Assembly (NCBI GenBank): GCA_023489335.1
Contig: JAMDCP010000011.1
Span: forward strand, 245,486 to 309,485
Length of the DNA: 64,000 bases
Origin: Deltaproteobacteria bacterium
Lineage (GTDB): Bacteria > SZUA-79 > Acidulodesulfobacterales > Acidulodesulfobacteraceae
Direction: 5' to 3'
Below the pieces are notes generated by a model. The model worked only from the letters and a program-made list of their open reading frames with translations, was not told the origin of the DNA and did no database searches. Positions 19,878-31,151 of the stretch are shown here, piece by piece. The translations under genes were made by a program, and so were the position numbers. How positions within the stretch are numbered: the first letter of the stretch is position 1; each line of letters begins with the position of its first letter.

Positions 19878-20087
19878 ATGTTAAGTCTAAAACTACCCGA
19901 GGAGTTGGAAAACCGCCTTGAAAATTTGGCTGTTAAAACTAAAAGGTCGAAAAGTTTTTATATAAGGGAAGCCCTCCAGCAGTATCTCGAAGATAACGAA
20001 GATGGCTATCTTGCATTGGAGCGTCTTAACGATAAAAATGCTGAATACTTAAGCCATGAGGAAGCAAGAAAATATCTTGGATTATGA
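19878..20087 (+). CDS. Ribbon-helix-helix antitoxin (RelB/CopG type)
   Basis: 69 residues. N-terminal MLSLKLPEELENRLENLAVKTKRSKSFYIREALQQYLE is a ribbon-helix-helix DNA-binding domain (strand LSLKLP, two helices); the C-terminal EARKYLGL tail would wrap the toxin. An AGGAGGAG ribosome-binding site precedes the ATG and the stop overlaps the toxin start by 4 bp (ATGA), typical of antitoxin-toxin pairs. The upstream inverted repeat supports autorepression. Confidence 0.88.
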   Translation: MLSLKLPEELENRLENLAVKTKRSKSFYIREALQQYLEDNEDGYLALERLNDKNAEYLSHEEARKYLGL

Positions 20088-20344
20088 ATTATAAAATAAT
20101 CTGGCATAAGGCGGCGCTTAACGATTTAAAGCGATTGGATATATCCGTCAGGCAAAAAGTATTTGAAAAAGTGGAAACATACCTGGCGCAAGATCCAATC
20201 GGCTTAGGCAAGCCTTTGAAACAAAATCTTGCAGGAATGTTTAGATACCGCTATGGCGATTACCGCATAATTTATGTCGTTAACATTCCCGAGAAAAGTA
20301 TGACGATTCTTGAAGTAGGTCATCGAAAAGAAATATATAACTAA
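20084..20344 (+). CDS. RelE/ParE-family toxin
   Basis: 86 residues, full length. NYKIIWHKAALNDLKRLD is the RelE/ParE N-terminus; GMFRYRYGDYRIIYVV and a terminal VGHRKEIYN carry the Arg/Tyr/His residues typical of RelE-type mRNA interferases. The RxGDYRxIY and HRxxxY motifs favour RelE over ParE. Overlaps its antitoxin gene by 4 bp. Expected action is cleavage of mRNA on the ribosome when the antitoxin is lost; that is family knowledge, not seen here. Confidence 0.88.
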   Translation: MNYKIIWHKAALNDLKRLDISVRQKVFEKVETYLAQDPIGLGKPLKQNLAGMFRYRYGDYRIIYVVNIPEKSMTILEVGHRKEIYN

Positions 20345-21503: not shown

Positions 21504-22214
21504 ATGGATCCTTTAAAAAGATTTCATAACGAGGACTGGCATACTCCCGAAGGGAAACTTATCAGGGAGTTTGTTTTTGGGATAAACGACGGCTTAGTTA
21601 CAACCGTGGGATTTGTCGCGGGTGTTACCGGCGCGCTTGTAAATACTAAAATAGTTCTTATGTCCGGTATGGCCGAGATTGTTGCGGGGACGGTTTCGAT
21701 GTTTTTTGGGGCATACCTTGCCGCAAAGTCCCAAAACGAATTTTACCAAAAAGAAATTAGAAGGGAAAAAAGAGAGATTGCGGAAAACCCTGACCACGAA
21801 ATAGAAGAGATTTACGAGTTATATGCGGATAAGGGCTTTACTAAAGAAGAAATAGACCCAATCGTTAAAAGGCTTACGGCTGATAAAAAGGTTTTACTTA
21901 ATTTTATGATACAGGATGAGTTAGGGATAAGCCTTGATTATTATGAAAAACCTCTTAAAATTGCTTCTTATACGGGTTTGTCTTTTTTAGCGGGAGGTGT
22001 TCCGCCGCTAATTCCATATTTTTTTACCAGAAATTCTTTTACGGCAATCGTTATTTCCATTTTGCTTTCTATATTAGTTTTGCTCTTTGCCGGTTTTGCA
22101 AAGGCTAAAGTTACAAAAACTAACGGATTAAAGAGTTCTATGGAGATGGTTTTAATAGGAGGGGCTGCCGCTGCCGCAGGGTTCGTATGCGGAAGGCTCA
22201 TAGGGCTGATTTAA
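21504..22214 (+). CDS. VIT/CCC1-family Fe(II)/Mn(II) transporter
   Basis: 236-residue membrane protein. EFVFGINDGLVTTVGFVAGVTGAL is the first VIT helix with the family's GxxDGLxT motif; AEIVAGTVSMFFGAYLAAKSQNEFYQKEI is the second, leading into a cytoplasmic Glu-rich helical part (~85-130) that binds metal; three more helices follow. VIT/CCC1 proteins export Fe2+ or Mn2+ from the cytosol or into a compartment. No ferritin-like domain is fused to this one; instead a ferritin-like domain is fused to a different transporter 1.5 kb away. Its last 17 bp overlap the MFS gene on the other strand. Confidence 0.88.
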   Translation: MDPLKRFHNEDWHTPEGKLIREFVFGINDGLVTTVGFVAGVTGALVNTKIVLMSGMAEIVAGTVSMFFGAYLAAKSQNEFYQKEIRREKREIAENPDHEIEEIYELYADKGFTKEEIDPIVKRLTADKKVLLNFMIQDELGISLDYYEKPLKIASYTGLSFLAGGVPPLIPYFFTRNSFTAIVISILLSILVLLFAGFAKAKVTKTNGLKSSMEMVLIGGAAAAAGFVCGRLIGLI

Positions 22215-23675: not shown

Positions 23676-25100
23676 ATGGATTATAATGTAAAACAAATGA
23701 CTGATTTATACATTAAACATGACGATAAAGACAATGATAAAAAGAAAATAAAAGAAGCCATCCTTTTGCTCCAAAAATACCTTGCCGCCGAGGTTGCCGG
23801 CCGTGATTTGTATATGGCGCAGGCAAAAACCCTTAAAGACCCGACATTAGTTCAGGCGCTAAAATCCTTTGCCTCGACGGAAAGCGGGCATATTATCAAT
23901 ATCAGGGAAAAAATAACCGAGCTTGGCGGCACGCCAAAACCGCTCGATGAAATCAGGGAATCGCAAAAAGGCGTTAGCGATGCATCCCATCAGGTTTCGG
24001 CCCCGTTAGACATGCTGAGGATTGATTTAAAAATAGAAGAAAACGCAATTAACGATTATACCGCAGGGTTGGAAATCATCGAAGACCCCGGTGTCAGAGT
24101 GCTTTTAGAGAATAATCTTGCCGAAGAGATACATCATTCTTTATATTTATCAAAAAGGATAAACGAGATTTTAGAGTCAACAAAGGCCCGCATCGGCGCC
24201 ATTGGGGCAGCGGAAAAACCCGGCGGGAAAGAACCGTCCGAGATTTTTAAAGCATCCATCGAGGTCGGGCAGACCCGCCTTAACAGGACATGGCTTGAAA
24301 TGTCGATGTCGGGCTTAATTGCGGGTATGAATGTTACCTTTGGCATAATCGCTTCTTCCTATGTTGCAGGCGCAACCGATCCTTTTGTCGGGGCAAATAT
24401 TTCTAAAATATTCGGGGCGCTATTTTTTCCAATCGGCTTTATCTTTTTAATGATTGGTAAAAGCGAGCTTTTTACCGAAAATTTTTTGGTCCCTGTTACC
24501 GCCGTTCTCGCAAAAAGAAATAAAATTAGCAGCCTTTTAAAATTATGGTCATTAACATTAATAGGCAATGTAGCAGGAATTCTTATATTTGCCCTCGCTA
24601 TCGCAGGTTCGCTAAACCAGTTAGTGCCATCGTTCGTCGTCAGCCACATACATAGCGTAGCCAATAGTTATATAAGTAAAAGTCCGTTTGTAATGGTTTT
24701 AAGCGCAATTTTTGCCGGATGGCTGATTACGCTTATGACATGGCTGTTAATTGCATCCAGCGGTACCCTTGCAAGAATTTTTATAATATGGATTGTCGGT
24801 TTTTTAATTTTTTTAAATTCATTCAGCCACATCGTAGTCGCTTCATCCGAAATTTTAATCGCTATTAATACCGGTTCTCATATATCATACCTTTCATGGC
24901 TTTATCCTTATGTTCCTTTAACTATCATAGGCAATATGATAGGCGGCTTATTTTTTGTTACCATTCTTCAATATTTGCAAATCTTGCATGCAAATTCGTC
25001 TTCGGAAGACATCATTCACTCATCCCGCGAGCTTAATATGTTCAGTAGGGCTGCTTCTAAAAAAGCGGATGAGGTCGAAGATATCGAGGATACTTTATAA
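23676..25100 (+). CDS. Ferritin-like domain fused to a formate/nitrite-transporter (FNT, YfdC-like) domain
   Basis: 474 residues. Residues ~25-168 form a rubrerythrin/ferritin-like four-helix bundle with the expected carboxylate/His ligands: Glu39, Glu69-x-x-His72, Glu121/122, and EEIHH with Glu150/151 and His153/154. After an Ala/Gly/Lys linker, residues ~187-450 are a six-helix membrane domain of the FNT family: PSEIFKASIEVGQTRLNRTWLEMSMSGLIAGMNVTFG and KSELFTENFLVPV are YfdC-like. Ferritin-like domains fused to VIT/CCC1 transporters (MbfA) are known; fusion to an FNT channel is, as far as I know, unusual. Possible role: sensing or storing iron or peroxide and gating transport. The VIT gene nearby suggests metal homeostasis. 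Diverges from the MFS gene. No ribosome-binding site seen. Confidence 0.82.
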   Translation: MDYNVKQMTDLYIKHDDKDNDKKKIKEAILLLQKYLAAEVAGRDLYMAQAKTLKDPTLVQALKSFASTESGHIINIREKITELGGTPKPLDEIRESQKGVSDASHQVSAPLDMLRIDLKIEENAINDYTAGLEIIEDPGVRVLLENNLAEEIHHSLYLSKRINEILESTKARIGAIGAAEKPGGKEPSEIFKASIEVGQTRLNRTWLEMSMSGLIAGMNVTFGIIASSYVAGATDPFVGANISKIFGALFFPIGFIFLMIGKSELFTENFLVPVTAVLAKRNKISSLLKLWSLTLIGNVAGILIFALAIAGSLNQLVPSFVVSHIHSVANSYISKSPFVMVLSAIFAGWLITLMTWLLIASSGTLARIFIIWIVGFLIFLNSFSHIVVASSEILIAINTGSHISYLSWLYPYVPLTIIGNMIGGLFFVTILQYLQILHANSSSEDIIHSSRELNMFSRAASKKADEVEDIEDTL

Positions 25101-25409: not shown

Positions 25410-26087
25410 ATGGAATATGATGAAAATGGGGTAAGCATTGTTCCGTTCGAATTTAAAAAAGAGATTTTTGAAGAAGCAAAAAAAGATTTTAGATACGAAG
25501 AATATGTTAGGGGATGTTTAAACTGCGGCGTATGCACGGGGGGCTGTCCGCCCCACAGGTTTTTCGATTTTTCCCCTCGCATAGTTCTTCAAAAAATGAA
25601 ATCGAAAGACCCGGAGCTTATCTGGACAATGATGGATGAATATGTTTGGGCATGTTTTCAGTGTTTTACATGCGCTATGATTTGTCCGTTTCTCAACAGT
25701 CCGGGAGGGATCATCGCTATACTAAGGGAAATTGCCGTTAGAAGGGGCTTTGAATCCGCAAAAAAGGTTTTAAAACCGTACTCGAGAGTTCTCTTAAAAC
25801 TCACGGCTTACGGTAATCAACTTTCCCCCGATATGATTCAGCCGGATTTCTTTCCCGATTGGGGTCCGCATATAGGTTATGCCTCCACCGACCTTGCCGT
25901 AAAAAGAAAAGCCATTCCGATGCCGACCCTTCAGGTTACTAATCTTGCATGGGATGTTGCCCCCGAAACCATGAAAGAGCTTTATGATATATTTGACGAA
26001 GCGGGGGTTTTCAAGATAATCGAGGCAGTAGATCCTTCACTGTATGAAATTATACAGGATATTGTGGATGATGTGAGGAGTTCTTAA
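25410..26087 (+). CDS. shdrC1: sHdrC1, iron-sulfur subunit of the sulfur-oxidising Hdr-like complex
   Basis: 225 residues with two [4Fe-4S] ferredoxin motifs in the HdrC arrangement: CLNCGVCTGGCP (~36-47) and CFQCFTCAMICP (~82-93). The rest is helical with no membrane segment, so cytoplasmic. It leads the cluster C1-B1-A-H-C2-B2, the gene order of the sHdr complex of Hyphomicrobium and other sulfur oxidisers, in which protein-bound sulfane sulfur is oxidised to sulfite in the cytoplasm. HdrC passes electrons between HdrA flavin/clusters and HdrB. GGGAG precedes the ATG. A methanogen-type or other Hdr role is the alternative, but gene order favours sHdr. Confidence 0.88.
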   Translation: MEYDENGVSIVPFEFKKEIFEEAKKDFRYEEYVRGCLNCGVCTGGCPPHRFFDFSPRIVLQKMKSKDPELIWTMMDEYVWACFQCFTCAMICPFLNSPGGIIAILREIAVRRGFESAKKVLKPYSRVLLKLTAYGNQLSPDMIQPDFFPDWGPHIGYASTDLAVKRKAIPMPTLQVTNLAWDVAPETMKELYDIFDEAGVFKIIEAVDPSLYEIIQDIVDDVRSS

Positions 26088-26147
26088 CAAAAAAGGGAAC
26101 GGCAAAATAAATAAAATAAATTACTATAAATTAAACAGGAGAGACAT

Positions 26148-27347
26148 ATGGCTATTGAAATAAATAACAGATTGGGTCTTGCCAATGTGAAATCCGATTA
26201 TATTCATGTTGCGGGAAGAAAGCTCGAGGATATTCATGATGAACTTTTAGAACTCGAGGCAAAGGGAGAGGTTAAGGTTATACATGTAAAGGATGAAAAC
26301 AAGCCTATCGAAGCCGAAACCCTATTTGGCTGGAAGAAAAAGATTCCGACCAATAAATTGTGGCACCATAAATCTTGCGGGCAGTGCGGAAACATCCCGG
26401 GCTATCCCGTATCACTTTTATGGTTTATGAATAAAATGGGGCTTGAGTATGTTGACGAAAGAAATCAGACATCGTGCACCGCATGGAATTATCATGGTTC
26501 TGGTACATCCAATCCGGTAGGGCTTGCCGCCGTCGCCGTTAGAAACTGGCACAGGGCTTATGAACTCGGATTGTTTCCGTTGTTTCATTGCGCTACTACA
26601 TTCGGGGATTATAAAGAAATGCGGAATCTGCTTGTCGAACATAAAGAGTTAAGAGACGAGGTTAGAAGAATAATGCATAAAATCGGCAGGGAACTCGTTA
26701 TTCCCGAATATATCGTGCATTATAGCGAATGGGTCCATGTCATGCGTTTTGAAATAGCCAAATTAAAAAAGTATGACCTGAGTAATGTCATAGCGACGGT
26801 TCACCCGGCCTGCCACACTTATAAAATGATACCGGAGGACTGCATTTACGATAAAGAAATTTATGCGGGAAAACGAACGGCTGTATCCACCGGTGTTACG
26901 CTTGCCCTGGGGGCGCAGGTTGCCGATTACTCGACATGGTACGATTGCTGCGGCTTTGGATTCAGGCATATTCTGACCGAAAGAGAGGCTTCAAGGTCGT
27001 TTGTGATGGATAGAAAAATCAGGCCTATGGTTAGAGAGGCTCATTCCGATGTCTGTATTACCCAGGATACCGGTTGTACGACAACGCTTGACAAAAATCA
27101 GTGGATAGGAAAAGCTATGGGCTATACCGAACAGGTTCCGGTTATGGCGGATGTCATGTTTGCCGCTTTAGCCTGCGGCGCCGATGTTTATAAAATTGTT
27201 CAGCTTCAATGGCATACGACGGATTGGAGGCCGCTGTGCGAAAAGATAGGGATAGACTGGAAAAAGTCGGAAGATGAATACAATGCCTATCTGGAAGAGC
27301 TTAAAGCAGGGGGAAAGACCGTTAATTTATACGAGTATCCGAAATAA
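26148..27347 (+). CDS. shdrB1: sHdrB1, CCG-domain catalytic-type subunit
   Basis: 399 residues. Cys-rich protein of the HdrB type: SCGQCGNIPG (~77), HPACHTY, YDCCGFGFRH (~265, the CCG motif) and CITQDTGC (~306). HdrB subunits bind unusual noncubane [4Fe-4S] clusters through paired CCG domains; in this copy the first CCG motif is altered (SCGQCGNIPG), as can be seen directly, so one cluster site may differ. A strong AGGAGAG ribosome-binding site is 6 bp before the ATG; 60 bp separate it from C1. It is followed by 179 bp containing a palindromic repeat before shdrA. Confidence 0.87.
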   Translation: MAIEINNRLGLANVKSDYIHVAGRKLEDIHDELLELEAKGEVKVIHVKDENKPIEAETLFGWKKKIPTNKLWHHKSCGQCGNIPGYPVSLLWFMNKMGLEYVDERNQTSCTAWNYHGSGTSNPVGLAAVAVRNWHRAYELGLFPLFHCATTFGDYKEMRNLLVEHKELRDEVRRIMHKIGRELVIPEYIVHYSEWVHVMRFEIAKLKKYDLSNVIATVHPACHTYKMIPEDCIYDKEIYAGKRTAVSTGVTLALGAQVADYSTWYDCCGFGFRHILTEREASRSFVMDRKIRPMVREAHSDVCITQDTGCTTTLDKNQWIGKAMGYTEQVPVMADVMFAALACGADVYKIVQLQWHTTDWRPLCEKIGIDWKKSEDEYNAYLEELKAGGKTVNLYEYPK

Positions 27348-27386
27348 AATTTAAGGGCATAGAAAAAATATAAAAAGAGCAGAAGA

Positions 27387-27471
27387 ACGAGATTGCTTCG
27401 TCGCCTGTGGCTCCTCGCAATGACGGAATAGGCAGTAATTGCGAGCGCAGCGAAGCAATCACAGTCAAAAA
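27387..27471. repeat. Palindromic intergenic repeat, second family, between shdrB1 and shdrA
   Basis: Outer arms GAGATTGCTTCG and CGAAGCAATC in inverse enclose TCGCAATGACGG and GTAATTGCGAGCGCAG. A near-identical but perfect copy lies at 38309-38366, and a decayed one at 21392-21430. It could form a stem-loop within the sHdr transcript and affect stability or expression of the downstream half. Confidence 0.82.
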
Positions 27472-27526
27472 ATGTTAAGTTAGAACTAATAACCTAATAA
27501 TAACCTAATAATCTGGAGGATTTTAT

Positions 27527-28570
27527 ATGGCTGAGAATATTTTGGTAATCGGCGGAGGCCCGGCAGGTTTGAATGCGGCGACTATGCTTTCCGAATTGGG
27601 CGTAAAGGTAACTCTGGCGGAAAGGGATTTATTTCTTGGAGGCAACCCTAAGAAATTTAAATATAAATTTTTGTTTCCGGATATGCAGCCTGCGGATAAT
27701 GTGGTAGGCGAGCTGATTAAAAAGGCCGAAACAAGCAGTAATATTAAGGTGTATTTATCTTCGGAGATTTCGGATTTTAAGGAAAACGGTAAAAAGTTCG
27801 ATGCGCAGATAAAATCGCCTGACGGGAATGAAATAAAAACCTTTGATTCGGTTATCGTCGCTACCGGTTTTGAGCATTTCGACCCTGCGAGGGATGCCAA
27901 GTATTCCTATCAATTATTCGATGATGTAATCGATATTAAGGATTTGGAAAGAATGATGGGCGAGGGGAATTTCGCCAGGCCTTCTAACGGACAGCCGCCA
28001 AAAAATGTTGCTTTTATACTTTGCGTGGGTTCGAGGGACAGGCATGTCGGCAATCAATACTGCTCAAGGGTATGCTGCACCGTTTCGGTCAAACAGGCTA
28101 TCGAACTCAGAGAACATTTCCCCGATTGCGAAGTGTATATATTTTATATGGATATTAGAACCTACGGTTTTTTTGAGGATTTATACTGGCAGGCTATGGA
28201 AGAGCACGATGTCCAGATAGTTAAAGGCAGGGTTGCCGAAATTACTTCGGGACCAGATAATACGGTTATTTGCAAGGGCGAGGATACGCTTTTAAGAGGG
28301 CCGTTCGAAATTCCGTTCGATATGGTTGTGCTGGCTTCGGGCATGGAAGGCGGACCTCAGTCGTCCGAAATGGCTAAAAAGCTCGGGCTTGAGCTTGACG
28401 AGCACGGATTTTTAAAGCCGCAAAATGTTACGCTGGCGCTTTTTAAATCCAACAAGGAGGGCATATTTTTGGCGGGCGCATGCACGGGGCCGAAGGCTAT
28501 TTCCGATTCCATTATAGAGGGCGGGGCGGCAGCGATGAATGCCTACATTTATGCTGTTAGAAACCATTAA
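27527..28570 (+). CDS. shdrA: sHdrA, FAD-binding subunit
   Basis: 347 residues, the short HdrA form found in sHdr systems (methanogen HdrA is about twice as long and has extra ferredoxin domains). GGGPAGLNAATMLSELG (9-25) is the FAD Rossmann motif; FILCVGSRDRHVGNQYCSRVCC (~163-184) is the HdrA cluster region with Cys166, Cys179, Cys183 and Cys184; the C-terminal GIFLAGACTGPKAISDSIIEGGAAA completes the flavin site. It probably passes electrons within the cytoplasmic complex. TGGAGGA precedes the ATG. shdrH follows 5 bp after the stop codon. Confidence 0.9.
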   Translation: MAENILVIGGGPAGLNAATMLSELGVKVTLAERDLFLGGNPKKFKYKFLFPDMQPADNVVGELIKKAETSSNIKVYLSSEISDFKENGKKFDAQIKSPDGNEIKTFDSVIVATGFEHFDPARDAKYSYQLFDDVIDIKDLERMMGEGNFARPSNGQPPKNVAFILCVGSRDRHVGNQYCSRVCCTVSVKQAIELREHFPDCEVYIFYMDIRTYGFFEDLYWQAMEEHDVQIVKGRVAEITSGPDNTVICKGEDTLLRGPFEIPFDMVVLASGMEGGPQSSEMAKKLGLELDEHGFLKPQNVTLALFKSNKEGIFLAGACTGPKAISDSIIEGGAAAMNAYIYAVRNH

Positions 28571-28575
28571 TTTAT

Positions 28576-29349
28576 ATGCCGTATATTTTAAAAAACAATA
28601 AAATCGACAAAAGATATGAGGAAAAGTTCTTTGAAATTATAAGGGAGAATCTGCCGGACGATAAAATTGGGTTAATTAACTCTCTTTTAAGACAAAAAAC
28701 GGAAATAATAAAAAGGTTTTTGCTGAATATTCGCGAAGGAAAACAGGAAAGGGAAAGTTTTGATAAAATATTATCCATCATATTTTCTATAAGAAGGCAT
28801 AAGGAAAAGATTGCCCAAACTGTGAGCCTTGATAGCTTGAACAATGCATTTATTATCCTCGGCGATTCTAAAAAATCGGCCGAAATTAGAATAGGCAGAT
28901 TTTTAGAGGCATTTTCTTATGACGATGTTGTGGTTAAGAGAGATATTGCCTTAGAAATTTTACATTTTTACGAGCCTGCAAAGAATGTTTTATGGACATC
29001 ATGGGTTTATAGGCAGGATAACGGAACGGGCTGTTTGCCTTATATGGCTGATTTTTTAAAAAGAACATGGGATGGAAATCCTTATATCATGCCGTTCAGT
29101 ATAAAAGAAATGAAAGAGGAAATAGATTGCCTTTATGAATTATCGAATAAAAATGGTTTTGCAATCAAACCCCCTTACGGCGTCGATATTCTTTTAAGTT
29201 ATATGTATGCCGATTATGTCTATAAAATGGTATATGCCGAATCTAAGTCTTTATCTATCGGCGTACCGGACGGGTTTACATTGATGAAAAAGTTATTGGG
29301 GATTGAAAAATTGGAGTTGCAGAGACAGGAATTAGGAATGGCTGGGTAA
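28576..29349 (+). CDS. shdrH: sHdrH, conserved protein of the sHdr cluster
   Basis: 257 residues, helical, no signal peptide, no Cys cluster motif. It lies between shdrA and shdrC2, where sHdr loci carry the hypothetical gene called hdrH, and that position is the main reason for the name. Visible features are a charged first half (ERESFDKILSIIFSIRRHKEKI) and a DFLKRTWDGNPYIMPFS stretch. Function unknown; it is co-conserved with the complex and may be a structural or assembly factor. ATG follows the shdrA stop by 5 bp without a clear ribosome-binding site, so it is probably coupled to shdrA. Confidence 0.72.
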   Translation: MPYILKNNKIDKRYEEKFFEIIRENLPDDKIGLINSLLRQKTEIIKRFLLNIREGKQERESFDKILSIIFSIRRHKEKIAQTVSLDSLNNAFIILGDSKKSAEIRIGRFLEAFSYDDVVVKRDIALEILHFYEPAKNVLWTSWVYRQDNGTGCLPYMADFLKRTWDGNPYIMPFSIKEMKEEIDCLYELSNKNGFAIKPPYGVDILLSYMYADYVYKMVYAESKSLSIGVPDGFTLMKKLLGIEKLELQRQELGMAG

Positions 29350-29407
29350 CGACTGTAATATTCAAATAATAATTCAGTGATTATTAAAATTTGATTTGGA
29401 GGGCTTT

Positions 29408-30172
29408 ATGGCTTTAGAAAAGCAAGAAAAAAGACCGGTTGCCGAAAAAGGGGAACATATTATAGCAAGGCATTTAATCGAAGACGACTACATTAAAGAA
29501 GAAAAAAATTTAGTTATCGACGGGGTCGATGTTTCTGGCAGGTGGAACACATTTATTCGCACAAGGGTCGATTCGGAGTTTGACAGGAGCTTCTTTCGGG
29601 AGGTCAAGGAAACCGTTGCCGGTTCAAGAATTAACAGATGCTGGCAGTGCGGAATGTGTACGGCAAGCTGTACCGTGACTCCGCTATACAGAAGGTTTAA
29701 TCCGAGGGCATTTATTTATATGATGCAGCTTGGCAACTTAAAAGAGTTGAAAAAATATGTTGATGTTGCATGGCGGTGCGTCGGGTGTTATAAATGTTCC
29801 CAGAGATGCCCCAAACAGGTAAATCCCGCCGAAATGATGGAGGCGCTTGCGCTTTTGATAAAAAAATATTTCCCGGAAGAAATGGAAAGTAAATTGAAAG
29901 TTGACGAAGATGTTAAAAAGATATACGAGGATATGATTCTGGGACACGGAAGATTAGACCTGGCGAAGCTTCATACCTCGTCGATGCAAAAGATGGGGAG
30001 AACAAAGGAACTTATCGGAAAAATGGAAAGGGATGCTATTTTTAAAATGATTAAGGACGGAAGGGCTTTTTCGATATTAAAGCTCGGCAGGCCGCATAAT
30101 TGGGGAAAATCAAAAAGGGCGATAGAAAATTATTTAAAAAATGCCAATACCCTTGAAAGAAGCGAGGCATAA
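29408..30172 (+). CDS. shdrC2: sHdrC2, iron-sulfur subunit
   Basis: About 254 residues from ATG 29408, which has GGAGGG 5 bp upstream; an in-frame TTG at 29396 overlaps that ribosome-binding site and is less likely. Two [4Fe-4S] motifs: CWQCGMCTASCT (the last Cys is not followed by the usual Pro) and CVGCYKCSQRCP. An extra N-terminal strand region (IDGVDVSGRWNTFIRT) distinguishes it from C1. Second HdrC of the cluster, expected to pair with B2. Confidence 0.87.
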   Translation: MALEKQEKRPVAEKGEHIIARHLIEDDYIKEEKNLVIDGVDVSGRWNTFIRTRVDSEFDRSFFREVKETVAGSRINRCWQCGMCTASCTVTPLYRRFNPRAFIYMMQLGNLKELKKYVDVAWRCVGCYKCSQRCPKQVNPAEMMEALALLIKKYFPEEMESKLKVDEDVKKIYEDMILGHGRLDLAKLHTSSMQKMGRTKELIGKMERDAIFKMIKDGRAFSILKLGRPHNWGKSKRAIENYLKNANTLERSEA

Positions 30173-30227
30173 AATGTTTGCGGCAAGGACTGGATTAAGG
30201 TAAAAATTAATTATAATGGGGGTTTAC

Positions 30228-31151
30228 ATGGAAAAATTAAAGGAAAACCAGGCGGCATATTATCCAGGATGCGCTTTACTGACAATAGATAGAGCTTATA
30301 ATAACAGTTCTAAATTAGTATCAAAAAAGATGGGCATAGAACTTGTCGAGCTGCAAGGTTATAATTGCTGCGGCATAGGAGAGATGAAATCTAAAGGGGC
30401 GGTTTCGATGTATCTGCCGCTTAGAAATATGATGCTTGCAAAATCGCAGCTTGGCTCAAAAGATCTGGTTATGGCATGTTCGGTCTGCTATCATGAGTTT
30501 AGCAGGTCCATTACAAGGGTAAGGGAAAATAAAAACGAGCTTGTCGAAGTCAACGCTATATTTAAAGAAGCGGGTGAAATTGAAGGCGAGTTTACCCCGG
30601 ACGGCGAAGCAAGGCATATTCTGGAGTTTTTATATAACGAAAAAGGGGTGGATGAGGTAAAGAAAAACACGGTTAAGCCGTTAAAAGGCTTAAAAGCGGC
30701 GCCTTATTACGGCTGTCTTTACTCAAGGCCGTCGATGTACACTTTTACCGATAAAAAACCTAATTTGGACAATTCCGAAAGACCCCGGTTTATGCATGAT
30801 TTTTTGGAAGCCATGGGTGCGGAAGTCGTTTTTTACGGTAACGAGGTGCAGTGTTGCGGCGGAAGAAATGTCGTTCAGGACGAGGAAACCTCTTTTGCGT
30901 TATGTTCGCAGACGCTTTCGAAGGCAAAAAAAGCCGGGGCGGATTTCCTTGTTCTTATCTGCCCAAAATGCGCTGGCGCGCTGGATGTAAATCAGCCTAA
31001 GATAGCCGCAAAATTTGGGAAGGATTCGGAACTTCCCGTTGTTTATTTAACGCAATTAATGGCTCTGGCATTTGGTTTTTCCAAAAAAGAAGCCGAGTTC
31101 GGCGATATGATTTCAGACCCGCTCAAGGCGCTTCAGGAAAAGGGGTTTTAG
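30228..31151 (+). CDS. shdrB2: sHdrB2, CCG-domain subunit
   Basis: About 307 residues from ATG 30228, which follows GGGGG at the right distance; an upstream in-frame ATG (30216) contains that ribosome-binding site and is less likely. Two complete CCG domains of the HdrB type: YYPGCAL..YNCCGIGEM..MACSVCY and PYYGCLYSRP..VQCCGGRN..LICPKCAGAL. They would hold two noncubane [4Fe-4S] clusters at the active site. Last gene of the sHdr cluster; a MITE-like repeat follows. No lbpA (lipoate-binding protein), tusA, dsrE or etf genes are adjacent, so those partners must be elsewhere if the pathway is complete. Confidence 0.88.
   Translation: MEKLKENQAAYYPGCALLTIDRAYNNSSKLVSKKMGIELVELQGYNCCGIGEMKSKGAVSMYLPLRNMMLAKSQLGSKDLVMACSVCYHEFSRSITRVRENKNELVEVNAIFKEAGEIEGEFTPDGEARHILEFLYNEKGVDEVKKNTVKPLKGLKAAPYYGCLYSRPSMYTFTDKKPNLDNSERPRFMHDFLEAMGAEVVFYGNEVQCCGGRNVVQDEETSFALCSQTLSKAKKAGADFLVLICPKCAGALDVNQPKIAAKFGKDSELPVVYLTQLMALAFGFSKKEAEFGDMISDPLKALQEKGF

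Follow-up and report, generated by a model that had tools for sequence, protein, structure and literature searches.

A ferritin-like domain fused to a YfdC-type formate/nitrite transporter pore: a candidate sensor-gated channel in two bacterial groups

Introduction

What would a ferritin-like domain do at the head of a membrane pore? The question is raised by a gene on the forward strand (23676..25100) of a 64,000-nucleotide stretch of deltaproteobacterial DNA, the whole of which is referred to here as the window. The gene is an unbroken open reading frame of 474 aa, and the initial annotation had read it as a ferritin-like domain joined to a YfdC-like member of the formate/nitrite transporter (FNT) family. 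The YfdC channels are an orphan branch of this family, and their function is given as unassigned in the available text of two studies (PMC5525234; PMC10971958). Members headed by ferritin, cyclic-nucleotide-binding (cNMP), receiver or CorA-type domains give a handle on both the cargo of this branch and its control.

Results and discussion

Two domains in one reading frame

The domain search placed a ferritin match (PF00210, 41.3 bits against a Pfam cut-off of 24.5) at residues 31-164 of the window protein and a Form_Nir_trans match (PF01226, 165.6 bits against 34.6, covering nearly the entire profile) at residues 189-433, so that the N-terminal region does score as ferritin-like and the C-terminal part as FNT. 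Structure prediction as a monomer model returned the expected fold for both parts, a bacterioferritin-like bundle and an FNT. Based on Pfam, ligand counts and fold, the ferritin-like four-helix domain was assigned to approximately residues 22-172 (23739..24191, forward strand). It is followed by a flexible linker of low pLDDT (residues 173-186; 24192..24233, forward strand), which leads into the FNT N-terminal helix (residues 187-202), and by the YfdC-type FNT pore (residues 187-440; 24234..24995, forward strand), which was delimited by Pfam, by alignment to solved FNTs and by fold. The same layout was found in 92 aligned sequences; an artefact of assembly or gene merging was therefore ruled out, and the single-frame fusion first proposed was borne out by Pfam, fold and alignment alike.

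A relative of 467 aa (P0005) begins where the window protein has M8, so the true start of the gene is possibly 23697. An antisense open reading frame within the gene (24359-24664) was taken as chance.

Phylogenetic spread

A survey of the architecture yielded two deep groups, A and B. The alignment consisted of the window protein, 53 group A and 38 group B sequences (92 rows), drawn from the best 120 of 595 and the best 120 of 281 matches; P0054-P0057, which are partial or carry a ubiquitin tail, were left out. Group A falls within the window's own family, and one of its loci (L023) comes from Candidatus Acididesulfobacter diazotrophicus, which belongs to an acid-mine order according to the available text of PMC6776010. 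An FNT was found in 23 of the 30 genomes of this family, in 26 copies, all of which were ferritin fusions; the ferritin part was strong in the same 23 genomes, with one copy cut by a contig edge. The ferritin query gave just a weak 50-residue match elsewhere in one further genome (G006). Three fusion copies in G026 and two in G018, each on its own contig, represent either paralogues or mixed strains.

The group B fusion was detected in eight of the nine genomes of one small phylum. This group includes a start-trimmed record of 346 aa from Thermosulfidibacter takaii, which is named formate uptake permease. Outside the window's family, the matches listed for 356 sampled genomes contained three fusions, all in the group B phylum; these were recognised by strong scores, and a more distant fusion could score below them. 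In one of the three (G049:C10:89702-90993) the fusion is split near residue 53, with the part before it read in a different frame, whether by error or through a true break. Two further candidates (G252, G320), in which a long frame extended just beyond the head, were identified as ferritin-VIT proteins and not as FNTs.

In the tree of the FNT domain, group A fell with the cNMP-headed and near receiver-headed forms, though with less than full support (94/85), and group B stood alone (100/98). A single clade of A and B was not rejected for the FNT domain (p-AU 0.097; 90 of 123 rows remained after 13 long or distant rows were dropped and a far unfused clade was thinned), nor for the ferritin domain (p-AU 0.31; 13 sequences used from the 14 of 20 fetched stretches with a ferritin match, the branch of L126 being very long).

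The literature searched, outside which lie preprints and most subscription journals, gave no described ferritin-FNT protein, in agreement with the first impression that none was known. The available text of the 2017 FNT survey contains neither 'ferritin' nor 'fused', and the YfdC proteins in it have N-termini averaging 42-55 residues, unlike the approximately 186 residues with a folded domain here. An automatic annotation, 'FocA (FNT family)/bacterioferritin', already exists in one source.

A bacterioferritin-like head

From the alignment, the predicted diiron ligands of the window protein are E39, E69, H72, E121, E151 and H154. The first three were present in all rows covering the region (54/54 in group A and 36/36 in group B, two rows being start-trimmed), and the other three in 54/54 and 38/38 rows, respectively. 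The ligands first picked out by eye thus stood for E39, E69, H72, E121 and H154, whereas E122 and E150 were dropped, since E121 and E151 are the positions fixed across the alignment. Residues Y46 and Y128 were likewise invariant in all fusion rows covering them. The mean identity between the ferritin domain of the window and that of group B was 27.6% (36 rows), and the ligands were kept nonetheless.

The E, ExxH, E, ExxH pattern on a four-helix bundle places the domain in the ferritin-like superfamily, and bacterioferritin was the best match in both the fold comparison of the predicted structure and the profile search. The window protein shares the four-helix bundle with bacterioferritin, as well as a six-ligand layout that we take to be the same. 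Bacterioferritin binds haem through a Met (Met52) beside the helix-B Glu; the window protein has S70 at this place and the aligned fusions have S, A or R, which sets them apart from bacterioferritin proper. Unlike bacterioferritin, the ferritin domain is also attached to a membrane domain, which makes a 24-subunit cage unlikely. A rubrerythrin-type site, with its extra Glu three residues past the helix-C ligand, was ruled out, as this place is occupied by A124, invariant in 14 aligned fusions. Residues 1-185 contain no hydrophobic stretch, and FocA/FNT termini face the cytoplasm according to the available text of PMC5572259; the predicted diiron domain would therefore be cytoplasmic.

A YfdC-type pore

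Positions in the FNT domain were assigned by ungapped alignment to solved FNTs and compared, in FocA numbering, with Table 4 in the available text of PMC5525234, leaving out F90 (uninformative) and T34, L37, N113 and L167 (unmapped). Nine of the ten mapped discriminating positions fit YfdC-alpha or -beta (L79F, G86K, S92E, T93N, N172G, F202I, E208S, A212V and N254Y), the odd one being K100, which is Ala in the window protein. These positions were mostly kept in group B, with Gln at G86 in 20/38 rows, Leu or Ile at N254 in 38/38 rows and Pro at K100. T267 and H385, which correspond to FocA T91 and H209, were fixed in 92/92 rows, and together with the domain model and the fold this Thr-91/His-209 pair identifies the window protein as an FNT. 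The FocA and NirC equivalog models of NCBIfam scored far under their cut-offs (61.7 bits against 290.1 and 28.4 against 293, respectively), and Ile378 and Glu268 take the places at which the hydrosulfide channels (HSC) have Phe (202) and Gly, Ser or Ala (92). On these aligned positions, the window pore is a YfdC-type FNT.

Regulatory-type heads on related pores

Other N-terminal domains were detected over the Pfam cut-offs: a cyclic-nucleotide-binding domain (PF00027) on the related FNTs P0082 and P0188, a receiver domain (PF00072) on P0058 and on a distant FNT, P0190, and a CorA-type domain (PF01544) on the related FNTs P0104 and P0118. Among 64 longer FNT proteins, a count restricted to candidates of approximately 370 aa or more, 55 had a ferritin head, five a cNMP head, three a receiver and one a CorA-type head. 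No description of cNMP-, receiver- or CorA-headed FNT pores was found in the literature searched. Because these domains sit at the same N-terminal place, the ferritin head is best read, from the domain layouts, as one of several swappable FNT regulators. More speculatively, the YfdC-type FNTs may be modular gated channels whose cytoplasmic head has been exchanged to suit different signals (cyclic nucleotide, phosphorylation, divalent metal or ferritin-type diiron), and the window protein would then be the first channel gated by a ferritin-like iron/oxygen switch.

A proposed sensor-gated pore as the favoured explanation

We favour, tentatively and with a probability of about 0.4, the reading that a cytoplasmic diiron ferritin-like domain senses iron or oxygen and gates the YfdC-type pore. 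Two irons would bind in the ferritin bundle, and either loading with Fe(II) or the reaction of Fe(II) with O2 or peroxide would shift helix D and the linker. Their movement would in turn push against the N-terminal helix of the FNT, or free it, at the cytoplasmic entrance to the pores of the pentamer, so that passage of a small solute, either neutral or a weak acid, might be allowed or halted. The full ligand set, the bacterioferritin-like fold and the regulatory-type heads on related FNTs speak for gating, and it is the other swappable heads, together with the path from the last ferritin helix along the linker to the N-terminal helix of the FNT, that make a sensor-gated pore the best reading. 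The initial annotation suggested that transport could be coupled to the sensing of iron or peroxide, which agrees with the evidence and is strengthened by the cNMP-, receiver- and CorA-type heads. The small anion that it offered as one possible cargo would sit less well with the neutral or cationic substrates suggested by computation (see below). Tight mechanical coupling is harder to argue from the model, in which the linker is flexible.

Two known systems resemble parts of the proposed mechanism. The N-terminal helix of FocA is able to reshape or close off the cytoplasmic vestibule, and the FocA N-terminus cross-links to PflB (available text of PMC12559229); there too a partner in the cytoplasm acts at the FNT N-terminus, although PflB is a separate enzyme, not a fused domain, and FocA carries formic acid. 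The P1B-5 ATPases with a hemerythrin domain likewise have a cytoplasmic diiron domain (predicted here) on a membrane transporter, but they have another diiron fold and another transporter, and they are energised by ATP. According to the available text of PMC9388753, diiron hemerythrin domains are known oxygen or redox sensors, and for the P1B-5 domain oxygen versus iron sensing is debated.

If the heads gate the pore, the YfdC family would comprise natural signal-controlled channels, and regulation would be added to storage and detoxification among the roles of ferritin folds. For the ferritin-headed members, this would be a new kind of regulated channel, in two separate bacterial groups.

Iron export and membrane-held catalysis as less likely alternatives

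Regulation is not the sole reading, since a head of the same kind is found on VIT transporters and is required for iron transport in MbfA. The main rival is an MbfA-like iron exporter in which the ferritin domain takes up Fe(II) and either oxidises it or passes it on, and the metal leaves by the YfdC-type pore; we consider it unlikely, and if iron does pass through the pore, a further class of bacterial iron exporter would result. MbfA, which had been named at the outset as the known analogue, is a fair one: two ferritin-VIT proteins from other sampled genomes (L130 and L131) share the layout and have a recognisably similar head, and the ferritin domain of the window finds the ferritin-VIT head of G252 with 29% identity (E 4e-5). 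As in MbfA, an N-terminal ferritin-like domain, cytoplasmic by FNT topology, is carried on a transporter, whereas the membrane part is an FNT here and a VIT there; no VIT1 domain was matched in the window protein by Pfam, nor did the NCBIfam MbfA model (NF045676) match it at E 0.1. The available text of PMC7762939 reports that the ferritin-like domain of MbfA has ferroxidase activity and is required for iron transport, and a 2020 computational study suggested a neutral or cationic cargo for YfdC-alpha, as reported in the available text of PMC10789880. An iron path would also suit E268, which replaces FocA Ser-92 in 92/92 rows.

A VIT-family protein, a predicted iron/manganese transporter (Pfam VIT1), is encoded upstream of the fusion in the window (21504..22214, forward strand), and VIT1 was seen near the fusion in six of the 23 fetched group A loci, some of which are too short to show it. 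At the genome level, VIT1 was present in 20/23 fusion genomes and 3/7 others (p 0.03, without correction for kinship). This association is in keeping with the exporter; the presence of both together in 20 genomes led us to reject the fusion as a replacement for VIT1. FNT pores have narrow hydrophobic constrictions, with F251, I378 and F255 at these places here, through which Fe(II) would pass poorly; nor do the relatives with cNMP or receiver heads point to iron.

The two ferritin-VIT proteins themselves (L130 688-1941 and L131 722-1948, the latter on the reverse strand; approximately 410 aa) fell far below the cut-off of the MbfA model or were missed by it, so the spread of MbfA-like exporters may exceed what the model captures.

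It is improbable that the ferritin-like domain is simply a membrane-held ferroxidase or peroxidase, with the pore feeding it or draining its product and no gating involved. The complete ligand set and the invariant Y46 and Y128 suit catalysis as well as sensing. We know of no reaction by which a ferritin would be connected with a YfdC cargo, however, and a membrane-held enzyme leaves the unrelated regulatory-type heads at the same place on related pores unexplained.

Neighbouring genes and possible cargo

The fusion is followed on the same strand by an Hdr-like operon (25410..31151) encoding hdrC, hdrB, hdrA, a protein of no Pfam family, hdrC and hdrB, an order that we take to be that of sulfur-oxidising sHdr systems; the three Hdr-like proteins scanned did not reach the NCBIfam Hdr cut-offs. 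An hdrC-like gene lay next to the 3' end of the fusion, on the same strand and at a gap of 84-756 bp, in 22/22 group A loci reaching it (23 fetched). This could point to a dedicated sulfur channel that carries bisulfite, sulfide or a precursor for the operon, a reading that we hold to be quite improbable. Three genomes (G005, G006 and G007) have the operon directly adjoined by the MFS gene, with no fusion in between (G008 was left out of this comparison because of a contig end), and the eight group B stretches that were read encode no proteins like the Hdr proteins of the window. Its position beside the fusion is therefore conserved within one family but does not prove that the two are partners, and the three empty sites weaken the fusion as its dedicated partner. 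DsrA reached its cut-off in 17/23 fusion genomes and 6/7 others (without correction for kinship); its failure to do so in six fusion genomes weakens the sulfur channel in general and sulfide from DsrAB as cargo in particular. Some DsrA matches run through an in-frame TAG (G021:C23, G024:C18 and others), possibly just past the true stop.

In group B the neighbours of the fusion vary, with no steady oxygen or iron theme; in one genome (L063) desulfoferrodoxin and ferritin genes occur no more than 5 kb from the fusion.

Least probable is a formate channel with ferritin as an add-on. In its favour, the formate dehydrogenase alpha subunit (TIGR01591) was over cut-off in 16/23 fusion genomes and 2/7 others, and the T. 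takaii record carries its permease name. Against it, the association has p 0.08 before any correction for kinship, the window's own genome has just weaker matches to the subunit, including a frame interrupted by TGA, and the scores of the FocA and NirC models are far too low. None of the nine group B phylum genomes reached the formate dehydrogenase cut-off either, which also weakens formate as a general cargo. Nitrite is disfavoured by NrfA (PF02335), the one nitrite enzyme searched for, which was found in 0/30 family genomes.

Formate-dehydrogenase-like frames with an in-frame TGA, perhaps for selenocysteine, were seen at G000:C11:48280-49050 and in matches in G002, G012 and G024. The window also contains a ribbon-helix-helix and ParE-type toxin-antitoxin pair (19878-20344, forward strand), which is absent from many syntenic loci. 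In G061 an FNT gene is immediately preceded by a beta-carbonic anhydrase gene (L069 6765-7382). Unfused YfdC-like FNTs in Ectothiorhodospiraceae and UBA6915 are preceded on the same strand by genes (L027 2179-2883, L028 4336-5034, L029 302-985 and L030 7197-7961) for proteins of 227-254 aa that match no Pfam or NCBIfam family and have an apparently soluble part and C-terminal membrane helices; these proteins could be separate partners of the pore. A small cytochrome c gene is convergent on the unfused FNT gene in three of the four loci.
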